Shown in pieces: positions 2,900 through 34,901 of a stretch of 64,000 nucleotides of DNA. Below the pieces are notes generated by a model. That model worked only from the letters and a program-made list of their open reading frames with translations, made no database searches and was not told the DNA's origin. Source of the DNA: a virus; the IMG/VR virus record IMGVR_UViG_3300027971_000051, positions 1 through 64,000 of that record. One strand, 5' to 3'. A program made the position numbers and the translations under genes. The number at the start of each line of letters is the position of its first letter. The first letter of the stretch is position 1.

Positions 2900-3646
2900 A
2901 TGGCTTTACCTAAATTTAACAACCCAATTTTTGAATTGACTTTACCATCTACTGGACAATCAGTCAAATACAGACCATTCTTAGTGAAGGAACAAAAACT
3001 TCTTTTGCTTGCTTTAGAAGGCAACAATCAAAATGAAGTTTTGACTGCAATTAAACAGATTGTTGGTAATTGCGCTATCGATGATATTGACCCAAGCAAA
3101 ATTGCATTATTCGATTTAGAATATTTCTTTATGAGACTTAGATCAAAATCTATTGGTGAATCAATTGATTTGAGATTGAGACATCCAACAGGATTCAATT
3201 CTAATAATGAAGAGTGTGACCACATGACTCCAATCTCAGTAGATTTGCTAGGTGTTGAAGTTGAGAAATTGGAAGATCATACGGATAAAATTATTCTAGA
3301 TGATGAGACTGGAATTGGTGTTAAACTTAAATATCCAAATGTGGACATGGCAATTGCAACAAATAAAACTATTGAAGGCAAGAACCAAATGGATATTGCC
3401 ACAGATGCAATCATTAACAGCATCGAATACATTTTTGATAAAGAAACAGTATACAAAAAAGAAGATTCTACCAAGAAAGAATTGGTTGAATTCATTGAGA
3501 ATTTAACTCAAGATCAATATTTAAAACTTACAAAGTTTTTTGAAACTATGCCAAAGTTAAAGCACAAAGTAGAGTGGACTTGCAAGAAGTGTGGATGTAG
3601 AGATGACGTAACTTTGGAGGGCTTGTCAAATTTTTTCGGCTTCTGA
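2900..3646 (+). CDS. 26: Baseplate hub assembly protein gp26-like
   Basis: 248 residues. The N-terminal LPKFNNPIFELTLPSTGQ and VKYRPFLVKEQKLLLLA, plus the C-terminal zinc-ribbon-like CKKCGCRDDVTLEGLSNFFGF, are the signature of gp26 hub-assembly proteins of T4-like phages. In T4, gp26 is an assembly factor for the central hub. GGAG lies eight bases before the ATG. The stop overlaps the next start as TGATG, so the downstream small gene is translationally coupled. Confidence 0.82.
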   Translation: MALPKFNNPIFELTLPSTGQSVKYRPFLVKEQKLLLLALEGNNQNEVLTAIKQIVGNCAIDDIDPSKIALFDLEYFFMRLRSKSIGESIDLRLRHPTGFNSNNEECDHMTPISVDLLGVEVEKLEDHTDKIILDDETGIGVKLKYPNVDMAIATNKTIEGKNQMDIATDAIINSIEYIFDKETVYKKEDSTKKELVEFIENLTQDQYLKLTKFFETMPKLKHKVEWTCKKCGCRDDVTLEGLSNFFGF

Positions 3647-3837
3647 TGGGGTCTGAAAATTTAGCAAACTACTATAAAACTAACTTTGCGTTAATGCAAC
3701 ATCATAAATATGATTTGGAGATGTTGGAGAACTTGATTCCTTTTGAACGTGAATTGTATATTATGCTACTTTCTCAACATATTGAGGAACAAAACCAGCA
3801 AGCAGAATTACAAAGACAGCAAAAAGGAAGAAGATAA
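3646..3837 (+). CDS. Small hub-associated conserved protein
   Basis: 63 residues, with YYKTNFALMQHHKYDLEMLENLIPFERELYIMLL followed by a Gln-rich basic tail. A protein of this size and sequence type regularly follows gp26 in T4-like phages of aquatic bacteria, often read as the end of a gp26/gp51-type hub assembly module or a tape-measure assembly chaperone. It is coupled to gp26 by TGATG and abuts the next gene. No enzymatic motif is visible. Confidence 0.7.
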   Translation: MGSENLANYYKTNFALMQHHKYDLEMLENLIPFERELYIMLLSQHIEEQNQQAELQRQQKGRR

Positions 3838-4362
3838 ATGACGACAGCCAAAGAGTATGCAAAATTAAGTGCTAGTGAGCAGAAAAAAGAAGATTGGATG
3901 AATGCTAAATGGCGTCCGATGATGGGTTGGATTTATATGCTGACATGTGTGACTGACTTCATTATCTTTCCTATTTTGTGGAGTATTTTACAAGCCGCAT
4001 TGAAACAACCTGTGACTGCATGGCAACCCATCACCTTGCAGGGTGCAGGTTTATTTCACCTCTCTATGGGTGCTATTATTGGTGTTGCGGCTTTCGGACG
4101 TACACAAGAAAAACTAGCAGGAGCAAACAATGGCGGAATGCAACCCTTGGGACAAAGCGTCACAACAACATATGGCTCTCCGTCAGCAGGCGGATTCGGA
4201 GCATCCAATACTTTTGGTGCACCAATATCAACACCAAGCTATGGCGGAAATTCAGGCTTTGGAACGCCAACGACTGGGACTGGAGGATTTTCAAAACCAG
4301 CAACCGGAAAGTCAGCAAGATTTGCAGAAGCCGATCCCGACTCTGTATTTGACAGAGGGTAA
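3838..4362 (+). CDS. Putative holin-like membrane protein (3TM holin type)
   Basis: 174 residues. After a short polar N-terminus there are two clear hydrophobic segments (residues about 28-50 and 64-84) joined by a WQPITLQGAGLFHLSMGA loop. This pattern is common in phage 3TM holin-type proteins. The last 85 residues are Gly/Ser/Thr-rich and probably disordered. Placement between hub and tape-measure genes also allows a structural role. It abuts the previous gene and is followed by the tape measure after seven bases. Confidence 0.55.
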   Translation: MTTAKEYAKLSASEQKKEDWMNAKWRPMMGWIYMLTCVTDFIIFPILWSILQAALKQPVTAWQPITLQGAGLFHLSMGAIIGVAAFGRTQEKLAGANNGGMQPLGQSVTTTYGSPSAGGFGASNTFGAPISTPSYGGNSGFGTPTTGTGGFSKPATGKSARFAEADPDSVFDRG

Positions 4363-7300: not shown

Positions 7301-9823
7301 GCACCAACAATGGCTCAAGCATTCGGATTGACTCCACAACAACAAGCAGGATTATCTAAAGAACAACTTGAAGTTCAACAAGCACAACTTGATTTAGCTA
7401 GAATAGAAGGTACTAAAAGGGCTGAAGAAGCAAAAGCTAAATTGGTATCAGATGCAGAATCAAGAGCGCAAGCATTAGGTTTAGAAAAAGATAGTGCAGA
7501 ATATAATAGAATGGTTGCGGCCGCCTCCGATAGAGGTAACGCAATGGTTACTATGGAAGCCGCAAAATATACTGTTTCGGGTTTAAGTGGACAGGCCAAA
7601 GAAGGTGGTGGAACTGAACTACGGAATCCAGGAGATTCACTCCAACTTGGAGATAAAGGATATGTTTCGGGTCAACTATTTCAGAAAAATCTTGCCGGTG
7701 AACTTGGTATTGGTAAAGAAATAGGAAACTTTGCATTCGACATGGGTAAGAACATGTTGGGTAAGCAGTTGACACAAAATATTAAGAATCCATACATGCA
7801 GATGATTGCAAACTTTGCAATTCAAAAAGGATTGAATAAAGGTGTTGATTGGCTATTTGATAGCAAAGGCGGTGGTTTTGATTTTGGAAAAATGTTTAGT
7901 GGACCGTCTAGCACGTGGATGGGACAAACCGATGAGTGGGGTAGTTTAGCTAATGCCGCAGGTGATGTTACTGATGTTGCTACTGCCGGAAGTGATATTG
8001 GTGACTTTGCAGACTTATTTGATTGGTTCGCTGATGGTGGTATTGCAACTAAAGCAACTCCTGGTGTTTTTGGTGAAGCTGGTGCTGAAGCTATTATTCC
8101 TCTTTCAAATCCTACTGCAACAAAAGCATTGTCTTCAGCTATGGGTACAGACAAACAATTGTCTGCGTTAGGAGACCAAACACAGTTATTGTCTAGCATC
8201 GATAATTCACTATTGACAATATCAGGAAAATCAGCTGGCTCGGGAACTAACATTGGTGGTGGAAGTTTATCATCATCAGGAAGTTCTTATATGATGAGTG
8301 GCGGCCTAGGTGGAGTTTGGAATCCAACTGCTACTACCTCATCAGGACTTAAACCTGGAGTTAATGCAGGAAAACCTGGTGCTCCTAGCACAATGGACAT
8401 TGTTGGGTCTATAGCAACTAGTATGGCAAAATCATACGTAATTAAAACTGCTATCGGTGCGGCATTAAATCTTGCCGTTCCAGGAACTACAGCCGCTTTA
8501 GCCGCAGGATTTGAAGGTGGTATTATGGCTGGCGTATCAAATGCAGTTGGTATGGTTCCAGGATTTGTTAGTGCCGCAGGAACTAATATTTCAAGTGCTT
8601 TAGGTTTGGGTGAAGGTGTTGGTGTTTTAGCGTCTGGTGCAAGTTCTGTTGCTAGTGCTTTAGGTGCTACTGAAGTCGCCGCCGCATTTGCGTCAGAAGG
8701 TTTGATGGCTGGCCTAGCCGCTATGGGACCTGTTGGTTGGGCAGGGCTTGCTGTTGTTGGTGTTGCGGCCGCATTAGGATATGGCGGTGGCGGTGGTGGA
8801 GGAAGTGCGCCTCCACCAAAAGAACCTAAATTCCATGCCGCAATCTATGTAACAGGAAATAACAATATTGATGCGATAGCGCCAGTATATGAAACAGTCG
8901 ATTATCATGCAGTTCCTGATGTATACAAAACGATTGCGTATGGTTTATTGCGTGTAGCTTTCAATGCGGCAAAGGCAGCCGAACAAGTTACAAAAATGGC
9001 GTCTCCATTTGACTATCTATACATTAAAGTCGAATATAATAGAATTTCTTTATGTTGGGGTAAAGGCGCACCTAATGCAAATACTCTAGCGACAAGTGAT
9101 GCTAATCAAGTCGGTTCATGGGGTCCACCAAGCAAAGAGCAAAATCTTAATGCTGTTGCAAGTGATATTGTAGATTTAATTAATAAAGAATTTAAAAAGA
9201 CAGCAAACGCACAACAACTAACTAAACTAGATACTGCGGCTAAAGCATTGGGTAACATGACATTAGACCAATTGAGTTCTGGTTTGATTCAAGACTTGAA
9301 GACTGGTGAGTTCAAATTAGATAAATCTGTAGAAAAAGGAATATATGCAAATAATGTAGCCGAATCTAACAGAATTGGTTCCCTAATTAATGCATCATCT
9401 ACTCATGCAGGATATGTGTCAACTGGAACGTCAGCAGAATATGATGCCGATGGTAATTTGATAAAGGAAGGAACCACAGGCGGAACTCCTATGATTTGGA
9501 GTATGAAAGATAACGCATATGTTGACGCTACTAAGTCTCCTGGTGCATTACTATTAGATGCACAAGGAAGACCTGTGTATGATATTCCAGGAACGTCAGC
9601 AGGTTTAACTGCTGAAGATTTTGGTGGAACAGACGTTGTTGGTATTGATAGACCAGCTAACTTGTATTCTCCTACTACAGGAAGTGTTACTTCGGGTTCA
9701 GGTTCTGGCGGCACTGTTATTAGCGCACCATCAAATACAAAAATTGATAACTCAGCGGTGAATAATTTCTATAATAACGTATCAAATTCTTTAGATATGT
9801 TGAGAAGTACAGGACCTAAATAA
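4370..9823 (+). CDS. Tape measure protein with M23 peptidase domain
   Basis: 1817 residues, the longest gene in the window, in the position of the tape measure. Ala/Gly-rich hydrophobic helices occupy residues about 200-290. A complete M23 (LytM) peptidase domain lies at about 365-495, with the zinc-ligand motifs HxxxD (H391, D395) and HxH (H478, H480). It would cleave peptidoglycan peptides during DNA injection. A tape-measure hallmark, FADGGIATKATPGVFGEAGAEAIIPL, lies near residue 1235. A Gly-rich hydrophobic block follows, and then a polar C-terminal domain. A 37-base direct repeat encodes the same decapeptide-scale segment twice. Length should scale with tail length. Confidence 0.85.
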   Translation: MATLGNYGAALGGMAKEAITGTAKGLVGGLKGAMIREAPGIAGAYAFGKDLNKRANSQSSSPRMSGVNSPSPSLSQTSPGASSPLGGLPQAVSLVAEQHKSNVINLEEVRQLKQLNANVINQSKLISFNVEDTKRKNVFAEEVANEQAIRDDKLLDAINKLGEKIENLGGVGGGKKTDGEGAGGLASVAGQVAAATAGGFLKDALKWMGGAIISAISAGWVLLRTSFFSFARSLVLSAALRFGGGMALGGAAAVAAPALATGALAAAIVAGLAALLWPRNAGAATGKSADTITGRDAAIDPEGAARRRAAEDATQKRVPSRKFVGDNKKWYEKRADIEAKWDEKYGKTHDPETGLLKDPKATTIYNPPAAGKVSSNFGEKRKDATGKDVTHQGVDIAMAVGTDVRPIAPGKVTKVVAGGAGAAGTYVQVTHPDGKISEYMHLSQALAKVDDEVTPASVIGKSGGAKGDVGSGSSTGPHLHLQLKTSSGEPVDPTSLPGLAGLTKGEKVSPADNTPKVTGAANNPNNKNTKEKRPGTKVEVNNKEVQDFYAEGKLPSRTKGGGLLFPPEANVPKKPPEASVPEKKSTWMGQTDEWGSLATPVATPTTRSLSGGTKIAVKNAPIKTEDDKLRKVTENIAKQQGIDPKKSSATQTPTQKQRETARLASIVKPLYKSNTQLINETNQKFLQAFKSTATRAFTQILTKELLPNGVGVSYKTAQQESNYRGQQLQKIFGTQAASQKFATGLLGKTYGPMFAPLFNQMAQGYLEVGSRIAGKAIFQGIGGLGAEETMGLTGQVLGNYAAGKKQLAFEQLLFGMSGGRKGGGIALGPETLLAKYGFDNPAQGISYFAGGLADMATAPLANLLGGDTTNGVTFNPRANNGQGGYINRDGTAATPAQYAAAARQYGASINQGPLFSVANDNFGGSRQAGYNPYETTQMRGGPNSVVQGYGQQYGSTPAPGQFRVVAPTVNSITGVSTAPTMAQAFGLTPQQQAGLSKEQLEVQQAQLDLARIEGTKRAEEAKAKLVSDAESRAQALGLEKDSAEYNRMVAAASDRGNAMVTMEAAKYTVSGLSGQAKEGGGTELRNPGDSLQLGDKGYVSGQLFQKNLAGELGIGKEIGNFAFDMGKNMLGKQLTQNIKNPYMQMIANFAIQKGLNKGVDWLFDSKGGGFDFGKMFSGPSSTWMGQTDEWGSLANAAGDVTDVATAGSDIGDFADLFDWFADGGIATKATPGVFGEAGAEAIIPLSNPTATKALSSAMGTDKQLSALGDQTQLLSSIDNSLLTISGKSAGSGTNIGGGSLSSSGSSYMMSGGLGGVWNPTATTSSGLKPGVNAGKPGAPSTMDIVGSIATSMAKSYVIKTAIGAALNLAVPGTTAALAAGFEGGIMAGVSNAVGMVPGFVSAAGTNISSALGLGEGVGVLASGASSVASALGATEVAAAFASEGLMAGLAAMGPVGWAGLAVVGVAAALGYGGGGGGGSAPPPKEPKFHAAIYVTGNNNIDAIAPVYETVDYHAVPDVYKTIAYGLLRVAFNAAKAAEQVTKMASPFDYLYIKVEYNRISLCWGKGAPNANTLATSDANQVGSWGPPSKEQNLNAVASDIVDLINKEFKKTANAQQLTKLDTAAKALGNMTLDQLSSGLIQDLKTGEFKLDKSVEKGIYANNVAESNRIGSLINASSTHAGYVSTGTSAEYDADGNLIKEGTTGGTPMIWSMKDNAYVDATKSPGALLLDAQGRPVYDIPGTSAGLTAEDFGGTDVVGIDRPANLYSPTTGSVTSGSGSGGTVISAPSNTKIDNSAVNNFYNNVSNSLDMLRSTGPK
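6128..6164 (+). repeat. 37-bp direct repeat, copy 1
   Basis: Identical over 37 bases to 7916-7952, both in the reading frame of the tape measure gene and encoding WMGQTDEWGSLA. Identity at third codon positions suggests a recent duplication or gene conversion. Confidence 0.9.
7916..7952 (+). repeat. 37-bp direct repeat, copy 2
   Basis: Second copy of the 6128-6164 repeat inside the tape measure gene, in the same frame and with the same codons. Confidence 0.9.
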
Positions 9824-12539: not shown

Positions 12540-13778
12540 TTAGCATTTAACTAATGTGCTTAGTAAATGTGGTCCATCCCATGTTTGGCTTTCGATTCTG
12601 AATTGACCTTTGAAGCCATATACTTCTTTAGCCCACATTCTTTCATTGTCGAAATAAAATGGAAATGTTTGTTCTGTGATGATGTTCACATGTGTTGGAT
12701 CCCAAAAGGCAGCCGCATGAGGAAATGCAGGTGTCTTTGAATAGAATTTTCCTCCAACTTTCAATACTCGCCAAATCTCACTCATCAATTCTACAAATGG
12801 ATATCTACGATTTGGATTATACATCAGTCTAGGAATGTGTTCGATGAAATCATGTGCAGTCACATAATCAAAGAAATTATCAATAAACGGAATTGGTTCA
12901 ATAACTAAATCTGCCCGTGTGATTTTATTCTTAGTATCATCTCTAACATCAATACCATATACATGTTTTGCGTTAAATGGATTTTTAGGATACTCACCAC
13001 AACCTAAATCAAGTGAATAAGTTTCTTCTGGTTCTTTAGTGTATCGAATAATGTCTTCGCTACAATCTGTTACTTTAGGTAAATCTTTACTCCATAATTC
13101 TTTTAGTGTTTCTGCTGTCATAACACCATTTGGTCCATGATAGTGATGGCTTCCCCATCCACGAATTCTATCGTGTTCTGGTACTTTATTTTGAATCTGC
13201 AACCTACGTTCAAGCATACCTCTACTAGCAATACAATTTGCATAGTGGAAAATCATCATCTCTTCATTGTTGAATGAGGCAAAATGGCGACCAACATCAT
13301 ATTCCATCGTCTTCACATTATGCAAACTTCTAGCACGGCGAGCCATGAAGTCTGTCTTATAGTGAATACCTTGTTTCTTCTGTGCCCACAAAGGTTTAGT
13401 TCTGTCTAACTCACCATCTGGATTCCAATCCCAGAATGTGATTGTTGGAATTAAATGTTGTGTAGACCTAATGGTGTCTGCTAAAAACTTTTTATAATCG
13501 CCAACTAAAAATTCTGTGACATTCAAACAAATGCGCCAGCCTTCAATCTTGCGTTCATATTCTAATACTTCAACGTCAACAAGTCTAGCATTAAATTCTG
13601 AATTTTTAGATTGTACAACTTCCCATGTCGGACAAATCTCTTTGATGATTTCACGGGACCTGTCTGTAGATGCATAGTCGATAATGATACCATGATCGAA
13701 AATTTTCTTATGATGTTCTAGCCACCAAGGTAGAATATATTCTTCATTATAAATGTGTGCAATTACTGTTGATGCCAT
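12540..13778 (-). CDS. Glycosyltransferase-methyltransferase fusion
   Basis: 412 residues from the ATG at 13778 (GAGGA four bases upstream); an upstream in-frame TTG is less likely. Residues 1 to about 245 form a GT2/GT92-like domain (VIAHIYNEEYILPWWLEHH, then DYASTDRS as the DxD-type region). From about residue 250 there is a class I SAM-methyltransferase (LDLGCGEYPKNPFNAKHVYGIDV, then FDYVTAHDFIEHIPR and IWRVLKVGGKFY). It probably attaches and methylates a sugar. It is the last gene of a four-gene cassette with two SDR-type enzymes and RmlC. Confidence 0.8.
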   Translation of the reverse strand: MASTVIAHIYNEEYILPWWLEHHKKIFDHGIIIDYASTDRSREIIKEICPTWEVVQSKNSEFNARLVDVEVLEYERKIEGWRICLNVTEFLVGDYKKFLADTIRSTQHLIPTITFWDWNPDGELDRTKPLWAQKKQGIHYKTDFMARRARSLHNVKTMEYDVGRHFASFNNEEMMIFHYANCIASRGMLERRLQIQNKVPEHDRIRGWGSHHYHGPNGVMTAETLKELWSKDLPKVTDCSEDIIRYTKEPEETYSLDLGCGEYPKNPFNAKHVYGIDVRDDTKNKITRADLVIEPIPFIDNFFDYVTAHDFIEHIPRLMYNPNRRYPFVELMSEIWRVLKVGGKFYSKTPAFPHAAAFWDPTHVNIITEQTFPFYFDNERMWAKEVYGFKGQFRIESQTWDGPHLLSTLVKC

Positions 13779-13785
13779 TGTGTCC

Positions 13786-14475
13786 TCAATTTTCAATTAA
13801 ACTTGTATCTATCAAAATCGGTACTGTGCTTGTTTTTAATAAGTTCTCAACTGATCCAGGTTTTACATTTGGGTTTCTCAATTGTCCAAACTCATAGAAT
13901 GAACGTCTAGGTCCACCAACATGACAAATGCCTGTTTGTTCACTTAAACATTTCTCTGCAATCTTAGGTGCAATAATATCTATGTACTCTTTAGATGAAT
14001 ACTTATCTGTAAATGCTGTGTCAAATGGAAAATCAACATCGCAAAATTCTGTTCGTATCACTAAAGATTTTTCATAAATTAGAGTAGCCATCTCACCAGC
14101 AACTTTAGATTTTGCATATCGTGTTAATGGATTAGGCAAATCTGTATGTGTGTAGTTTCCTTTTTGTCCATCGAATACATGTGACGATGAAATAAAAACA
14201 AATCTAGCATTCTGATTCATCGCATGTTTTAATGCGTTACATGTGCCTTGAATGTTTGTTTCAATTGTGCCAATAGGATTTTTTTCTGCATCAGCAAATT
14301 TTGCGATAGCCGCACAATGAATAACCAAATCGCAATCAAATAGTGTAAAGAAGAGTGGATCGGTAATGTCTAACTCACTACTACTAGGTGCAATGATTTC
14401 ATGTCCTCTTACTCTTAAATGGCGAATTAAATTTCTGCCAAGAAGTCCTGATCCACCAGTTAACAAAATTTTCAT
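13786..14475 (-). CDS. RmlD-like dTDP-sugar reductase (SDR)
   Basis: 229 residues. Rossmann motif GGSGLLG (residues 7-13), DLVIHCAA, FISSSHVFDG and the catalytic YAKSK (Y-x3-K) identify an extended SDR of the dTDP-4-dehydrorhamnose reductase type. It is shorter than typical RmlD (about 290), with a reduced substrate domain. It overlaps the upstream epimerase by ATGA and precedes the GT-methyltransferase. Confidence 0.75.
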   Translation of the reverse strand: MKILLTGGSGLLGRNLIRHLRVRGHEIIAPSSSELDITDPLFFTLFDCDLVIHCAAIAKFADAEKNPIGTIETNIQGTCNALKHAMNQNARFVFISSSHVFDGQKGNYTHTDLPNPLTRYAKSKVAGEMATLIYEKSLVIRTEFCDVDFPFDTAFTDKYSSKEYIDIIAPKIAEKCLSEQTGICHVGGPRRSFYEFGQLRNPNVKPGSVENLLKTSTVPILIDTSLIEN

Positions 14476-15434
14476 TTGCCTAAAACTTTCTGAAATGTTG
14501 TTATGTTAGAATATTCATCACTATCGAAATTATAGCTTAACGGATCCATATTGTCAAGTATCTCAGCCAAAGAGTCTAGAGGGGTAAATTGTGCTTTGAA
14601 ACCTAACTCATCTTCGATTTTTTCTGTACTCACTTTGTAGTTACGAACATCATTGTTTTCGTTGATAACTAAGTCAACAACATATCCTCTTTTTCTCAAC
14701 TCTCCGTGAATTGCTTCACCCAACTGACCAATCGTCATATTGCCGCCAGAAAGATTATAAACACCAGACACATTCAAGTCTGCTTCTAACGCTTTTTGAT
14801 ATCCCTGAATCACATCACGAATATCTACAAGTGGGCGCCAAATCTTTGGATTATTAACTACAATCTTTTGTGTAGTGAATGCACTCTTCAACATAGTGTT
14901 CACAACTAAGTCGTAACGCATCTTTGGAGACCAACCACCAACTGTGCCTTTACGAAACAAAATTGGTTTGAAGTTATCATCTTCTAATGTTTCTAAGCCA
15001 CGTTCACATTGTAGTTTAGAAATACCATATGCATATGCAGGTTTAACAAGACTGCTTTCGTTCAATGTTTTATTCTTAGTGAATCCATATACGCTACAAG
15101 AACTTGCACAAATAAAACGTTTTACTCCAGCTTCTTTAGCAATGAATGCAAGATACATTGGCGCAGAAGAATTCTCAATGAAGTTTAAGTCTGGTCTAAA
15201 CATTGCCATTGGATCATTAGATAATCCAGCAAGAAACATAATTGCATCATATGAAGTCAACTCTGCGGGTTTGATATCCCAAAGGCTTTTTCTTTCCTTT
15301 GAAATATTTGGATTGAGTTTATCTCCAAACCAGAAGTTATCAATAACATGTACTTTGTATCCAAGATCAAATAGATGATTTGAGAGTCTTGTGCCAATGT
15401 AGCCTGCGCCACCAACGATAAGAATATTTTTCAT
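14472..15434 (-). CDS. NAD-dependent nucleotide-sugar epimerase/dehydratase
   Basis: 320 residues. N-terminal VGGAGYIGTRL (NAD-binding GxxGxxG), an acidic end to beta-2 (VHVIDNFWFG), ICASSCSVYG and YGISK (Y-x3-K) place it in the extended SDR NAD-sugar epimerase family. The precise substrate cannot be read. It lies two bases after the RmlC-like gene and is coupled by ATGA to the RmlD-like gene. Confidence 0.8.
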   Translation of the reverse strand: MKNILIVGGAGYIGTRLSNHLFDLGYKVHVIDNFWFGDKLNPNISKERKSLWDIKPAELTSYDAIMFLAGLSNDPMAMFRPDLNFIENSSAPMYLAFIAKEAGVKRFICASSCSVYGFTKNKTLNESSLVKPAYAYGISKLQCERGLETLEDDNFKPILFRKGTVGGWSPKMRYDLVVNTMLKSAFTTQKIVVNNPKIWRPLVDIRDVIQGYQKALEADLNVSGVYNLSGGNMTIGQLGEAIHGELRKRGYVVDLVINENNDVRNYKVSTEKIEDELGFKAQFTPLDSLAEILDNMDPLSYNFDSDEYSNITTFQKVLGK

Positions 15435-15436
15435 AA

Positions 15437-16000
15437 TTAAAATTTCGGGTTTAGTTTATAATCTGCGAAAGAGCCTGCGGCTCTATCTTTGTCTGATAGA
15501 ATGATATTTTGTTTGCCTTCGGCAAAATGTTTCCATACCTCATTTAAACCTATTTCATCATCAAATGGACTTATCGCAGATTCTGCTAATGGATTGTGTA
15601 CTGCTGTGCATTTGTACATAAGGTGAGTATTATCCTCTAATGATAAAAATGCATGACCAAAACCAGGAGGAACCCATAGCTGAGTATTATTATTAGCACT
15701 TAATCCTTCGGCGTGCCAATAACCATATGTTTTAGAATCTTTTCTGAGATCAATTGCAATGTCAATTCCATTTCCGTGAGTTACACGAACCAATTTTCCC
15801 ATTGGTTCATCCCATTGAAAATGAATTCCTCTTACAACATATTTTCGTGATGATGATTGATTGTCCTGAACAAATTTTACGCCTAGTGCGGCTTCAACTT
15901 TTGGGTTGAATGTTTCAGTAAAAAAACCACGGTGGTCTTTGTATACAGGTAGTGTGATGGATTTAACATCGGGGATTGTTTTAGAATCAACTATATGCAT
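15437..16000 (-). CDS. rmlC: dTDP-4-dehydrorhamnose 3,5-epimerase-like (RmlC)
   Basis: 187 residues, typical RmlC size. Signatures: DHRGFFTETF, VRGIHFQ (catalytic His of RGxH), GNGIDIAIDLRKDS, WVPPGFGHAFLSLED and Tyr in HLMYKCTA. RmlC epimerises C3 and C5 of a dTDP-4-keto sugar. No RmlA or RmlB is seen, so the phage probably taps host dTDP-sugar pools. GGAG precedes the ATG. It begins 20 bases past the tmRNA coding piece. Confidence 0.85.
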   Translation of the reverse strand: MHIVDSKTIPDVKSITLPVYKDHRGFFTETFNPKVEAALGVKFVQDNQSSSRKYVVRGIHFQWDEPMGKLVRVTHGNGIDIAIDLRKDSKTYGYWHAEGLSANNNTQLWVPPGFGHAFLSLEDNTHLMYKCTAVHNPLAESAISPFDDEIGLNEVWKHFAEGKQNIILSDKDRAAGSFADYKLNPKF

Positions 16001-16021
16001 TATTATTCTCCATAAATTAAT

Positions 16022-16052
16022 GACAGGTTATTCTGTTACGAGGAAACCTGTC
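16022..16052 (-). ncRNA. 3' hairpin of the tmRNA coding piece
   Basis: Eight base pairs, GACAGGTT with AACCTGTC, close the region after the tag frame. It could be a tmRNA domain or a processing/termination signal; no strong T-run follows. Confidence 0.55.
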
Positions 16053-16069
16053 GAAACCCTAGTCAGCGT

Positions 16070-16102
16070 TTAGGCTGCCAATGCGAAACGTGAGTCGTTT
16101 GC
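16070..16102 (-). CDS. tmRNA proteolysis-tag reading frame
   Basis: GCA AAC GAC TCA CGT TTC GCA TTG GCA GCC then TAA, i.e. ANDSRFALAA. The AND start and ALAA end match bacterial tmRNA tags recognised by ClpXP and ClpAP. It begins at a resume GCA and has no start codon, as expected for trans-translation. Confidence 0.9.
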   Translation of the reverse strand, partial: ANDSRFALAA

Positions 16103-16200
16103 GTTTACTTTTTTTGCTTGATTTACGGTCATCGCCTACCGTGCTGTCCACTCTGGTACTCTTTGCCCTGTCGAAACTATGCACCCCCATCAAAAATAAA

Positions 16201-16353
16201 TTATATAATTGTATTTTCTGCAACAACATATACTTTCCATTTCGGATGTTTTTTAGAAAGACTTTCTGCTTTAACAAGCAAATGTTCTTTACTCTTACTT
16301 ACATCTTTTACGAAAGTTTTGTCGCCAGTTTTTACTACAATTTTATATTTCAT
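16201..16353 (-). CDS. 50-codon ORF inside the tmRNA intervening segment
   Basis: ATG at 16353 to TAA at 16201, nearly filling the gap between the two tmRNA pieces. The product is lysine-rich with alternating beta-like and helical stretches (MKYKIVVKTGDKTFVKDV, then HPKWKVYVVAENTII). No ribosome-binding site is obvious. It may be a real small protein translated from the precursor, or chance coding. No family recognised. Confidence 0.5.
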   Translation of the reverse strand: MKYKIVVKTGDKTFVKDVSKSKEHLLVKAESLSKKHPKWKVYVVAENTII

Positions 16354-16363
16354 AATTTACTTT

Positions 16364-16395
16364 TGGTGGAGGTGGGGGGATTCGCACCCCCGTCC
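16364..16395 (-). ncRNA. tmRNA T-arm and acceptor strand with CCA
   Basis: T stem of five G-C pairs with loop TGCGAAT, then CACCTCC, discriminator A and an encoded CCA. It pairs with GGGGGTG at 16188-16182. Confidence 0.88.
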
Positions 16396-16428
16396 AGAAC
16401 CTGTTTCTCTTTGCTTCATACAGCAATA

Positions 16429-16566
16429 TCAATCGTAAGGTGGCCAACCAGTGTCCGCCTTACTATCTTCTTCAAAATTATTCCAATCGTAGGTTGCAAG
16501 TTTGTAAATCCAAAATGCATGTAGTCCTACAACAAGAATTAATAAAATTATATCACTATTTATCAT
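16429..16566 (-). CDS. Small single-pass membrane protein
   Basis: 45 residues. A hydrophobic helix (IILLILVVGLHAFWIY) follows four residues; the tail is acidic and ends DTGWPPYD. The ATG lies one base after the stop of the upstream nuclease gene, suggesting coupled translation. It ends close to the estimated 5' end of the tmRNA acceptor piece. Short, so the call rests on its hydrophobic pattern and position. Confidence 0.55.
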   Translation of the reverse strand: MINSDIILLILVVGLHAFWIYKLATYDWNNFEEDSKADTGWPPYD

Positions 16567-16567
16567 G

Positions 16568-17236
16568 TTAGTCAATCAGTACGGCATCATATGCTTCTCG
16601 GTAAGAAATAAAATCTTTGATGTAGTCGTTGCGTTTCTTAATGAACACTTGTGGATGTTCAGAATCAACTGCTATCATAATTACAATTTGTGATACTGGT
16701 ATTCCAGTTCGTTCTTCATACATGACTGCATACGCAGAGCATTGCATAAAGTATCCTTTAATCCAACTCTCTTCTTTTAATTTGCTTGAAGTCTTGAAGT
16801 CAATGATAGATAACTTACCATCATATTCTGCAATACAGTCAACTCTACCAGCAACTTTTAAATGATGAGAATACAAAGGAATCTCTAGCGCATGAATGTT
16901 ATTTACATGTTCATCCAATAGAGGTTGTAAAGACTTGAACATAGCAACAGAATCTGGCATCGTCTTACGTGCAAAGTCTTCTTCGTTGTTTAAATAGTTT
17001 TCGCAAATCTTGTGTACTCTAGTTCCACGGCTGGATGCTTTAGTGGAGATACGATTGGCTTCTTCTTCACCGACACGTTTTCGCCATTCTATGATTTTAT
17101 CTTTACCATGCTGAGATGTGATAGTAGTCACGGAAGGATATAGATTGCCTTCAGGCGTTTTATAAAAACGCTTGCCGTTTATTGTTTCGGTTTCTAGGTC
17201 ATAATCAATATCACAACCAACATGTTTAAAGTTCAT
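16568..17236 (-). CDS. PD-(D/E)XK exonuclease-like protein
   Basis: 222 residues. YPSVTTIT near residue 35, RGTRVHKICENYL, VAGRVDCIAEYDGKLSIIDFKTS (catalytic D...DxK core) and a conserved Q-x3-Y helix (QCSAYAVMYEE) are typical of RecB/Cas4-type PD-(D/E)XK nucleases in T4-like phages. The likely role is DNA processing or host DNA turnover. It lies two bases after the upstream unknown gene. Confidence 0.78.
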   Translation of the reverse strand: MNFKHVGCDIDYDLETETINGKRFYKTPEGNLYPSVTTITSQHGKDKIIEWRKRVGEEEANRISTKASSRGTRVHKICENYLNNEEDFARKTMPDSVAMFKSLQPLLDEHVNNIHALEIPLYSHHLKVAGRVDCIAEYDGKLSIIDFKTSSKLKEESWIKGYFMQCSAYAVMYEERTGIPVSQIVIMIAVDSEHPQVFIKKRNDYIKDFISYREAYDAVLID

Positions 17237-33088: not shown

Positions 33089-33685
33089 TTATGCAAATGT
33101 GTTAAAAGATAAAATTATTCTGTCTTCATTTGAAGAAACTTCATTGTTGTCGTGAGGAAACCATGATGGGAATAAAATCATATCAGATTGTTTTGATGAA
33201 ATTTCTGTTTTGTGGGTTGTATATTTTGTGTCATAGCTTTTATCCATATAATCGATATATGGATTTACAGAATAAAAAACTGTATTGTCTTGACTATCAT
33301 TTTTTTTCAAATACAAAACTCCAGATACTGTAGATTTAGGATGTACATGTTTTTTTAGTTTTGTTCCTTTTGGCTGAATACTCAACCAGGAATTATCTAT
33401 AGGTTTTGTACTAACCCCATATCGTAAACAATAAGAATTTATTTGCGTTTGGATACTCTCTTTGATATTAAAACAACTAGAAATGCATTTTTGTATGTCA
33501 TCTAAAATCAAATCATCTATGGGATATGTAGTTGAAGCACATCCCGTCACTATTCCAACATCAGTTTTAAATTTTGTTTTTGATTTTTCTACATAATTTA
33601 AAATATCGACTCTTTGTTGTTCCGTTATAAAATTATCATATTTTATGATAAGTGTTGGGAATAATTCAATTTCGTTTTTTTTCAT
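33089..33685 (-). CDS. 2OG-Fe(II) oxygenase, TIGR02466 type
   Basis: 198 residues: IELFPTLIIKYDN, NSWLSIQPKGTKLKKHVHPKSTVSGVLYLK, ILFPSWFPHDNNEV and RIILSFNTF. A paralogue of the adjacent gene. Its start lies inside the end of the halogenase gene, so the two are co-translated. Confidence 0.8.
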   Translation of the reverse strand: MKKNEIELFPTLIIKYDNFITEQQRVDILNYVEKSKTKFKTDVGIVTGCASTTYPIDDLILDDIQKCISSCFNIKESIQTQINSYCLRYGVSTKPIDNSWLSIQPKGTKLKKHVHPKSTVSGVLYLKKNDSQDNTVFYSVNPYIDYMDKSYDTKYTTHKTEISSKQSDMILFPSWFPHDNNEVSSNEDRIILSFNTFA

Positions 33686-34901
33686 CTTGAATATTATACA
33701 TCATTTTTAATTTGTTCATAATACCTAGCGAATTTAAATTACTGTGAAAACTTGCAGGACTCCAAGTGCCATAGTGTTCCAACTGCGAACGTGTCATCGG
33801 ACCATCAGGTTTTGGATATTCTTCTGCATTAATGGATTCTTCAGTAGCAGGTTGAAATTCTAGTTTCGATGAATATTTAACTATGTGCTTGAACCAATTT
33901 GCACTATCAACCATATTCTGATGACCAACTTTTTTTGCATGTTTCCAAAACTCTGTATCGTATATAGAACCTGAAAAATAGTGAATCATGATGACGTTTT
34001 CTATTTCTCTGATTTTAGTTGAATAGAATTCATTGGCTCTTTGTGGTGTGACAATTCCCCTAACCGTCAGGATGGAGTATTGAAAAATATCCATCATCAT
34101 AGAAATGGATGTTGCTTCTAATGGCTCTAAGAAAAATGAAGAATTTCCATTAAAACTAATTCTATCAGTAAAATTTTGTTTTCTGTAATAGTTTGGAAAT
34201 TCAATTGAATTAGTCTTGTCACTAGGTACCAAATTGTACTCATCAAAAATATTCTTAACGTCTTCTTTAACTTCATCAAATGTATTGAAATTTTTGTTAA
34301 AAATATATCCTATAGAACATCTGTTTCTTAGGGGAACACCAAAGACCCAACCATATGGCCGTGCGATAGCCAAGGTGTGATTAAATCTTGGATAGTCCCA
34401 ATAGCATTGCGTAACGTATGCGGCATTTACTGGTATGTATGGCGTTTTGATAAATGAATCGTCAACTATTGGTCGACCCGAACAATCCATAATATAATCC
34501 GCATCAATCTCATCATGAGAATTTATGTGTTTATCTGTCAATTTTATTTGATCCGACACCCTATCTGATACATAATCTTGTAGTGCTACCGCATTAAAGT
34601 GATATCCAAAATGTCCTGCGCCGAGATTATGATAAAACATTTCTCCTGTCTCACCCCAACCTTGCTTTTTTAAACCAGTTTTAAATGTGCCGTCAATCTT
34701 TTTAATGTCTTCTGACGTAAGACCTAAATGTTTACCAAGCATTTCAGGAAATCCAAGAATCGATCCTTCACCAACGGGTTGAGTTTTGATATTGGAATCA
34801 TATATCCATTCGGTTTCAAAGCCATGACGTTTGTACATCATAGCCGCAGAAATTGCTCCTGCTGTTCCTCTACCTAAAATCGCAATCTTTTTTTTCCTCA
34901 T
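33666..34901 (-). CDS. Flavin-dependent halogenase (tryptophan halogenase family)
   Basis: 411 residues, shorter than PrnA-type enzymes (about 530). FAD-binding GRGTAGA (residues 10-16), GEGS at 44-47, GWVFGVPL at 184-191 (family form GWxWxIPL) and FLEPLEATSI at 257-266 (family FLEPLExTSI). K74 in TFKTG lies where the family has its catalytic Lys. It would use FADH2, chloride or bromide/iodide and oxygen to halogenate an electron-rich substrate. A phage halogenase of this family (VirX1) is known from a cyanophage. Confidence 0.85.
   Translation of the reverse strand: MRKKKIAILGRGTAGAISAAMMYKRHGFETEWIYDSNIKTQPVGEGSILGFPEMLGKHLGLTSEDIKKIDGTFKTGLKKQGWGETGEMFYHNLGAGHFGYHFNAVALQDYVSDRVSDQIKLTDKHINSHDEIDADYIMDCSGRPIVDDSFIKTPYIPVNAAYVTQCYWDYPRFNHTLAIARPYGWVFGVPLRNRCSIGYIFNKNFNTFDEVKEDVKNIFDEYNLVPSDKTNSIEFPNYYRKQNFTDRISFNGNSSFFLEPLEATSISMMMDIFQYSILTVRGIVTPQRANEFYSTKIREIENVIMIHYFSGSIYDTEFWKHAKKVGHQNMVDSANWFKHIVKYSSKLEFQPATEESINAEEYPKPDGPMTRSQLEHYGTWSPASFHSNLNSLGIMNKLKMMYNIQDEKKRN

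Follow-up and report, generated by a model that had tools for sequence, protein, structure and literature searches.

The minus strand of the window, by which we mean the entire stretch of 64,000 nucleotides analysed here (positions 1 to 64,000 of the virus record IMGVR_UViG_3300027971_000051), carries a circularly permuted, two-piece tmRNA gene in which the acceptor piece lies 5' of the coding piece and a 7-bp acceptor stem spans the interval between the two, the IVS, which in turn contains a reading frame for a protein of 50 amino acids (Table 1; other loci are referred to by L numbers).

The permuted tmRNA gene and its surroundings

The identity of the RNA gene is not in doubt. The Rfam model tmRNA_permuted (RF04321) matches over its full length (model positions 1-213) at 16425-16070 (-), with 124.6 bits, well over the gathering score of 47 (E 6.6e-24), and ARAGORN reports a permuted tmRNA (tmRNA*) at 15979-16456 (-) with the tag ANDSRFALAA. 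The beta_tmRNA model (RF01850) matches 16460-16013 (-) with 90.4 bits, a modest margin over its gathering score of 84, in an alignment that includes the terminal element but lacks most of the last model stem. Thus, the phage-encoded two-piece tmRNA proposed in the first-pass annotation is confirmed, both pieces being aligned end to end in the Infernal/Rfam comparison suggested there, and the mature ends predicted at 16364 and 16188 agree with Rfam and with our reading of the sequence. The other hallmarks that had been listed can all be read directly, namely seven acceptor pairs (GGGGGUG/CACCUCC) including G3.U70, the encoded CCA, the resume codon GCA, and the tag ANDSRFALAA followed by TAA. 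The tag frame therefore ends as a hydrophobic degron followed by a stop, and the tags of the relatives stay within the AND...LAA type. The T-loop, UGCGAAU (T-arm, window positions 16383-16402), is intact, with G at position 55, which is normally U; UGC in place of UUC is also seen in other phage permuted tmRNAs, such as those of Mosig and L044.

A standard ssrA elsewhere, which had been named among the findings that would speak against this assignment, did not turn up: ARAGORN detects no one-piece tmRNA within the window. The 66,970-base virus record, which is possibly a fragment, contains no second permuted tmRNA and no SmpB gene, and because SmpB is missing from the record, the function of the tmRNA depends on the host, with whose SmpB it presumably engages in trans-translation. 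Capture of the tmRNA from a host lineage is plausible from sequence comparison, given that, of the clade-specific Rfam models, beta_tmRNA alone scores above its threshold.

Table 1. Features of the permuted tmRNA locus (window coordinates).
Feature	Positions	Strand	Basis
Permuted tmRNA gene, whole	16425-16020	-	Rfam, ARAGORN
3' acceptor piece: D-side strand, T-arm, acceptor 3' strand CACCUCC, encoded ACCA; mature 3' end 16364	16364..16425	-	RF04321 and beta_tmRNA matches, acceptor pairing; 5' limit approximate
IVS, 175 nt, predicted to be excised from the precursor; exchangeable cassette	16189..16363	-	interval between mature ends
5' coding piece: GGGGGTG... GTTTCGAC ... tag ... terminal hairpin; mature 5' end GGGGG, G1 = 16188	16020..16188	-	RF04321, RF01850, ARAGORN; 3' limit approximate
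Tag reading frame, resume GCA at 16102 to TAA ending at 16070, ANDSRFALAA*	16070..16102	-	ARAGORN and direct reading
Terminal stem-loop GACAGGTT...AACCTGTC, 3' of the tag, last structured element of the beta_tmRNA model	16022..16052	-	model alignment, direct reading; kept in relatives
Putative IVS protein gene, 50 aa, MKYKIVVKTGDKTFVKDVSKSKEHLLVKAESLSKKHPKWKVYVVAENTII; ATG at 16353, stop TAA 16203-16201	16201..16353	-	conservation, dN/dS, predicted fold
Extension helix, 5' arm: A76 and about 12 nt past CCA, up to the start codon, with the weak ribosome-binding-like sequence AAAAG	16352..16364	-	in-register pairing with 16192-16204, covariation, folds of excised IVS and precursor
Extension helix, 3' arm, within which the 50-aa gene ends; a conserved UGAU stands between it and the mature 5' end	16192..16204	-	covariation, fold
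Free-standing 45-aa membrane-type ORF directly upstream of the tmRNA	16429..16566	-	tblastn, 50-58% identity, E about 1e-8
Candidate sigma-70-like promoter, TTGACT-17-TATAAT, TG before -10, 11/12 matches	16547..16575	-	consensus match only

With regard to the surroundings, the count of 25 adjoining tRNAs has to be corrected to 24 tRNAs in the window in addition to the tmRNA (ARAGORN). The small membrane-type ORF that directly precedes the tmRNA has relatives that lie inside the tmRNA IVS itself at six other loci (L078, L089, L132, L147, L166 and L267). Directly downstream of the tmRNA, at 12540-16000 (-), is a region of nucleotide-sugar and glycosyltransferase genes (dTDP-4-dehydrorhamnose epimerase, epimerases, glycosyltransferase/methyltransferase) that varies between close relatives. 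Further away, the window encodes a tryptophan-halogenase-like protein (33666-34901 (-); Pfam Trp_halogenase, 112.8 bits), and in L033 a Type II hammerhead ribozyme match at 9123-9189 (-) barely exceeds its gathering score (38.2 versus 37 bits).

A protein-coding frame within the IVS

The first-pass annotation took the interval 16189-16363 to be a mere spacer, and this part of it has to be revised. Scans of viral contigs recovered relatives of the 50-aa protein encoded at 28 places (27 contigs besides the window), and in seven tmRNA lineages the relative sits inside the IVS of a tmRNA_permuted gene that scores above the gathering threshold (window/L002/L007; L011; L013; L014-L017; L031; L034-L037 with L042/L043; L044/L045). 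The IVS relatives always comprise 50 codons, with no indel, and are 58-100% identical to the window protein. For moderately diverged copies of the gene dN/dS is 0.07-0.20, pN/pS among the IVS copies is 0.14-0.39, and between the window and L011 the changes are distributed over the three codon positions as 5/5/17, that is, they fall mostly in the third.

In three other cases the gene is found outside any intact tmRNA. In L009/L010 it is free-standing, its start overlapping the stop of the upstream gene as ATGA, and short CCA/leader remnants precede it in L033 and L008. In L008, the gene (3001-3153) lies next to decayed tmRNA remnants and a separate, intact permuted tmRNA without the 50-aa gene is located about 0.65 kb downstream, at 3775-4173, so that here the gene and the tmRNA have come apart. 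Because the frame is subject to purifying selection and persists outside intact tmRNAs, the 50-aa protein appears to be kept for its own sake.

Could the frame nevertheless be a by-product of a conserved RNA, an untranslated accident within a mere spacer? Such a view draws on the facts that the arms of the helix described below are conserved as RNA, that folding predicts pairing of the start region (and of the ribosome-binding sequence of the window copy, which, at AAAAG, is weak), and that most phage IVSs, including those of the isolate phages examined, hold no frame. We nevertheless consider it very improbable, given that substitutions concentrate in third codon positions in this and similar comparisons, that pN/pS is 0.14-0.46 in four unrelated IVS families, that the 50-codon length is invariant, that the frame outlives decayed or absent tmRNAs (L008, L009, L033), and that filled frames far exceed their expected number (see below). 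We have to conclude that the IVS frame reads, by its pattern of substitution, as a real protein gene under purifying selection at the protein level.

As for what the protein might be, AlphaFold2 yields a confident model (pLDDT 89.9) with a strand-strand-helix-strand (b-b-a-b) arrangement. Pfam and PHROGs contain no convincing family for it, searches of the PDB and of viral folds gave no match below E 0.01, and no relative was found in annotated phages or in 84,980 bacterial and archaeal genomes (scanned via two short peptide patterns each); plasmids yielded a weak, irrelevant partial match only. The predicted fold is similar to that of numerous uncharacterised small phage proteins and has a weak likeness to antitoxin-like folds (Dmd, ATfaRel2), the matches being non-significant. 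The PADLOC model REase_II (type II restriction enzyme) matched five relatives (best E 1.9e-4) and left the window protein unmatched, and was rejected as an indication of function or membership.

The 50-aa gene is not the only occupant of this position. Permuted tmRNAs were collected from viral contigs via a T-arm pattern together with IVS-length patterns (IMG isolate contigs matched by the 224-254 nt pattern were left out of the tmRNA counts), and 129 distinct genes were parsed by acceptor pairing. An IVS of at least 75 nt was considered filled when an ATG 7-18 nt past the CCA opened a frame covering at least 80% of it. By this definition, 22 of the 56 independent IVSs carry a filling frame, compared with 1.65 expected from dinucleotide shuffles, a proportion that describes this sample and is not a population estimate, because the sample was chosen by T-arm, CCA, 5'-motif and IVS-length patterns. 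By BLAST, the 22 frames fall into about 17 mutually unrelated protein families, with products of 26-71 aa. Three families besides the 50-aa one show reduced amino-acid change (L078/L147, L065/L213 and L090/L189; pN/pS 0.23-0.46); the L065/L213 family has a free-standing relative in L043/L058, and the L226 family matches phrog_4098 (E 4e-11) as well as T4-like phage proteins annotated as hypothetical. In roughly half of the families the frame meets no stop codon ahead of the mature 5' end, so that a released IVS of this kind would be a non-stop RNA. The frames of L065/L213, L189, L226, L238/L255, L240, L242/L250 and others continue beyond the cut and enter the mature 5' piece, with no stop in the IVS. 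In L112 (1084-1625), the 237-nt IVS looks doubled, with the CCA and a GGTGGTGCTCCACCA-like segment recurring inside and helix ends on each half, possibly the remnant of a tandem duplication.

Exchange of IVSs and the helix beyond the CCA

Comparison of individual tmRNA genes shows that IVSs are exchanged between phages. The mature pieces of L007 and L219 are identical over the compared 62 and 170 nt, whereas L007 has a gene-bearing IVS of 175 nt and L219 a gene-less one of 88 unrelated nt; likewise, the mature pieces of the window and L194 differ at only 5 and 2 positions, with IVSs of 175 and 58 nt. Conversely, the window and L002 share an IVS identical at 175 of 175 positions, against 91% identity in the 5' piece, 85% in the exonuclease gene and 76% in the rfbC-like gene. 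The exchange junctions are the processing sites (CCA-AAAG ... TTTTGAT-GGGG). In a tree of mature tmRNAs, IVS type requires 37 changes versus a shuffled mean of 42.5, so that it appears to be poorly tied to tmRNA ancestry; given that the tree is built on about 230 nt and weakly resolved, the argument for exchange rests on the pairwise comparisons.

Rapid replacement between near-identical tmRNA genes is also what one would expect of a homing-type mobile element, comparable to the group I intron of some tmRNAs with its endonuclease gene. This explanation strikes us as hardly credible for the present case: Rfam finds no intron family in the window and no endonuclease family is matched, the T-loop is uninterrupted, the encoded proteins are small and unrelated to one another, and the boundaries coincide with tmRNA processing sites, unlike the T-loop intron site described in PMC11915505. 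Since it is the content of the IVS that varies, with the mature RNA and the boundaries of the helix conserved around it, phages appear to swap IVSs as whole cassettes.

The helix in question extends the acceptor end into the IVS, A76 and the next 11 nt pairing with IVS nucleotides -4 to -15 (12 bp). Over 71 independent IVSs, 11.01 of the 12 positions are paired, compared with 7.83 +/- 0.15 when the 3' arms are permuted among genes (0/1000); A-U, G-C, C-G and G-U are all common at the variable positions, and the UGAU that precedes G1 is nearly invariant. The helix is recognisable in most of the isolate phages checked. This strongly covarying 12-bp element past the CCA provides a concrete hypothesis for the recognition and cutting of permuted precursors.

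Does the helix have anything to do with the gene above it? We lean slightly towards the answer that it does not, i.e. that the IVS gene is independent, being placed between the two pieces for compactness, and that the helix serves processing only, with no regulatory link. The slot holds unrelated proteins whose homologs occur free-standing, and the helix is equally present in gene-less IVSs. What fits less well is that the helices of gene-bearing IVSs are significantly weaker (duplex dG -12.7 versus -16.1 kcal/mol without a gene, p 1.8e-5) and A/G-rich, their 5' strand being at the same time the ribosome-binding sequence (of the AAAAGGA type; the window has only AAAAG). Helix and ribosome-binding site are thus co-adapted, which demonstrates a constraint on a common sequence rather than regulation.

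A tentative alternative is that maturation and translation are coupled, the helix of the precursor hiding the ribosome-binding site until cutting frees a mini-mRNA; the reverse is also conceivable, with a ribosome that translates the IVS unfolding the helix and blocking maturation. A released stop-less cassette would then be a non-stop mRNA that the tmRNA could in turn tag. Start codons are located at the helix top (+9 to +14) in some 17 unrelated families, and the predicted pairing of the ribosome-binding region (+1..+9), which is 1.00 for the precursor, drops to 0.75 once the IVS is excised, a modest hint from folding that maturation may favour translation; the frequency of stop-less families is also in line with coupling. 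On the other hand, both helix arms stay on the excised IVS, so that cleavage alone would open the site only partly, the alpha-type group (L034, L044) has a GAGG site just above the helix instead, and the case for coupling is purely inferential. More specifically, and this we regard as rather doubtful, the helix might be at once a processing signal and a lid on the ribosome-binding site, such that the maturation of the tmRNA and the synthesis of the small protein exert mutual control and stop-less products are tagged by the tmRNA of the same transcript. If this were the case, the phage would gain a self-reporting measure of its ribosome-rescue capacity.

Whichever of these relationships holds between helix and gene, we put at about 85% the probability that the locus encodes a functional permuted tmRNA and that its removable spacer serves, in addition, as an exchangeable slot for small genes. 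The permuted architecture, the protein-level selection on the IVS gene, the exchange of IVSs and the covariation of the helix are computed results; we infer processing, translation from the tmRNA precursor or IVS RNA, and a function for the protein. The scenario would start from a single transcript of the order acceptor piece, CCA, IVS, coding piece, from which the IVS would be removed, host RNase P forming the 5' end at 16188 and a 3' processing activity the 3' end at 16364; the freeing of the pieces by RNase P and the tRNA 3' processing enzyme is extrapolated from tmRNA biology (PMC3985003). The two pieces would then pair via the acceptor stem into a two-piece tmRNA that, with host SmpB, tags stalled proteins with ANDSRFALAA, the 50-aa protein would most likely be translated from the precursor or the freed IVS, and whole cassettes would be swapped by recombination in the flanking tmRNA sequence. 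Should the IVS genes be translated, the discarded spacer of an RNA at the core of translation quality control would be a recurrent, exchangeable home for small phage proteins, raising the question: are ribosome rescue and small-protein synthesis linked through one RNA?

Relation to known tmRNAs

That a phage should carry a permuted tmRNA is not new, contrary to the emphasis of the first-pass annotation: a survey published in 2022 counted 53 two-piece tmRNAs in 18,146 phage genomes, of which 50 belong to aquatic phages, and one is described in the Methylophilales phage Melnitz (PMC9004378). Among isolate phages, we find permuted tmRNAs in those infecting Stenotrophomonas, Xanthomonas, Alcaligenes and Pelagibacter, several of the genes being unannotated at the spot. 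The ARAGORN predictions unannotated in the public records are those in Xanthomonas phages Rb1 (L049), X1 (L303) and XacN1 (L304), Stenotrophomonas phage DLP_6 (L050) and Alcaligenes phage QDWS595 (L305), all with IVSs of 31-126 nt and no filled frame. Annotated hypothetical proteins overlap the mature permuted tmRNA in L301 (1059-1172; CPT_Moby_106 of Stenotrophomonas phage Moby) and L302 (893-1471, minus strand; QDWS359_42), and these two are probably false gene calls. Genes located in an IVS, if they are translated, would escape annotation, because the segment is masked by tmRNA callers and short frames are passed over by gene finders; a systematic scan of permuted tmRNAs might then uncover the many small IVS proteins.

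Our literature searches, which covered papers with openly readable full text, returned no report of a protein gene in an IVS. The passages found in the 2025 tmRNA database paper cover a tRNA gene in one IVS, a repeat in another, and endonuclease genes carried by group I introns, with no mention of protein genes in IVSs (PMC11915505).

With the permuted tmRNAs represented by RF04321 and RF01850, and with the two-piece tmRNA of Caulobacter (Keiler et al., 2000, as cited in PMC3985003), the present gene shares the gene order, the G3.U70 acceptor stem, the encoded CCA, the GTTTCGAC block, the LAA-end tag and the terminal stem-loop; it differs from them in that its IVS carries a protein gene under selection. 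Like Melnitz and the Pelagibacter phage Mosig, it is a permuted tmRNA of an aquatic tailed phage, and that of Mosig likewise lies downstream of a PD-(D/E)XK nuclease gene; however, the Mosig IVS is only 44 nt long and without a gene of the 50-aa kind, and the riboswitch reported for Melnitz was not seen in the window or at the loci scanned with Rfam. The intron-form tmRNAs (group I intron, some with a LAGLIDADG endonuclease gene) described in PMC11915505 similarly place a protein gene in a removed tmRNA segment, but there the segment is a self-splicing intron in the T-loop, whereas here it is a processing spacer between the acceptor and coding ends that encodes unrelated small proteins. In one permuted tmRNA described in the same source, the IVS houses a tRNA-Ala gene; both cases put a second gene product there, but the tRNA-Ala case concerns an RNA gene in a single, nominally archaeal genome and the present one recurrent protein genes in many phages. 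Thus, against the background of the phage permuted tmRNAs already known, it is the protein gene in the IVS that is unusual here.
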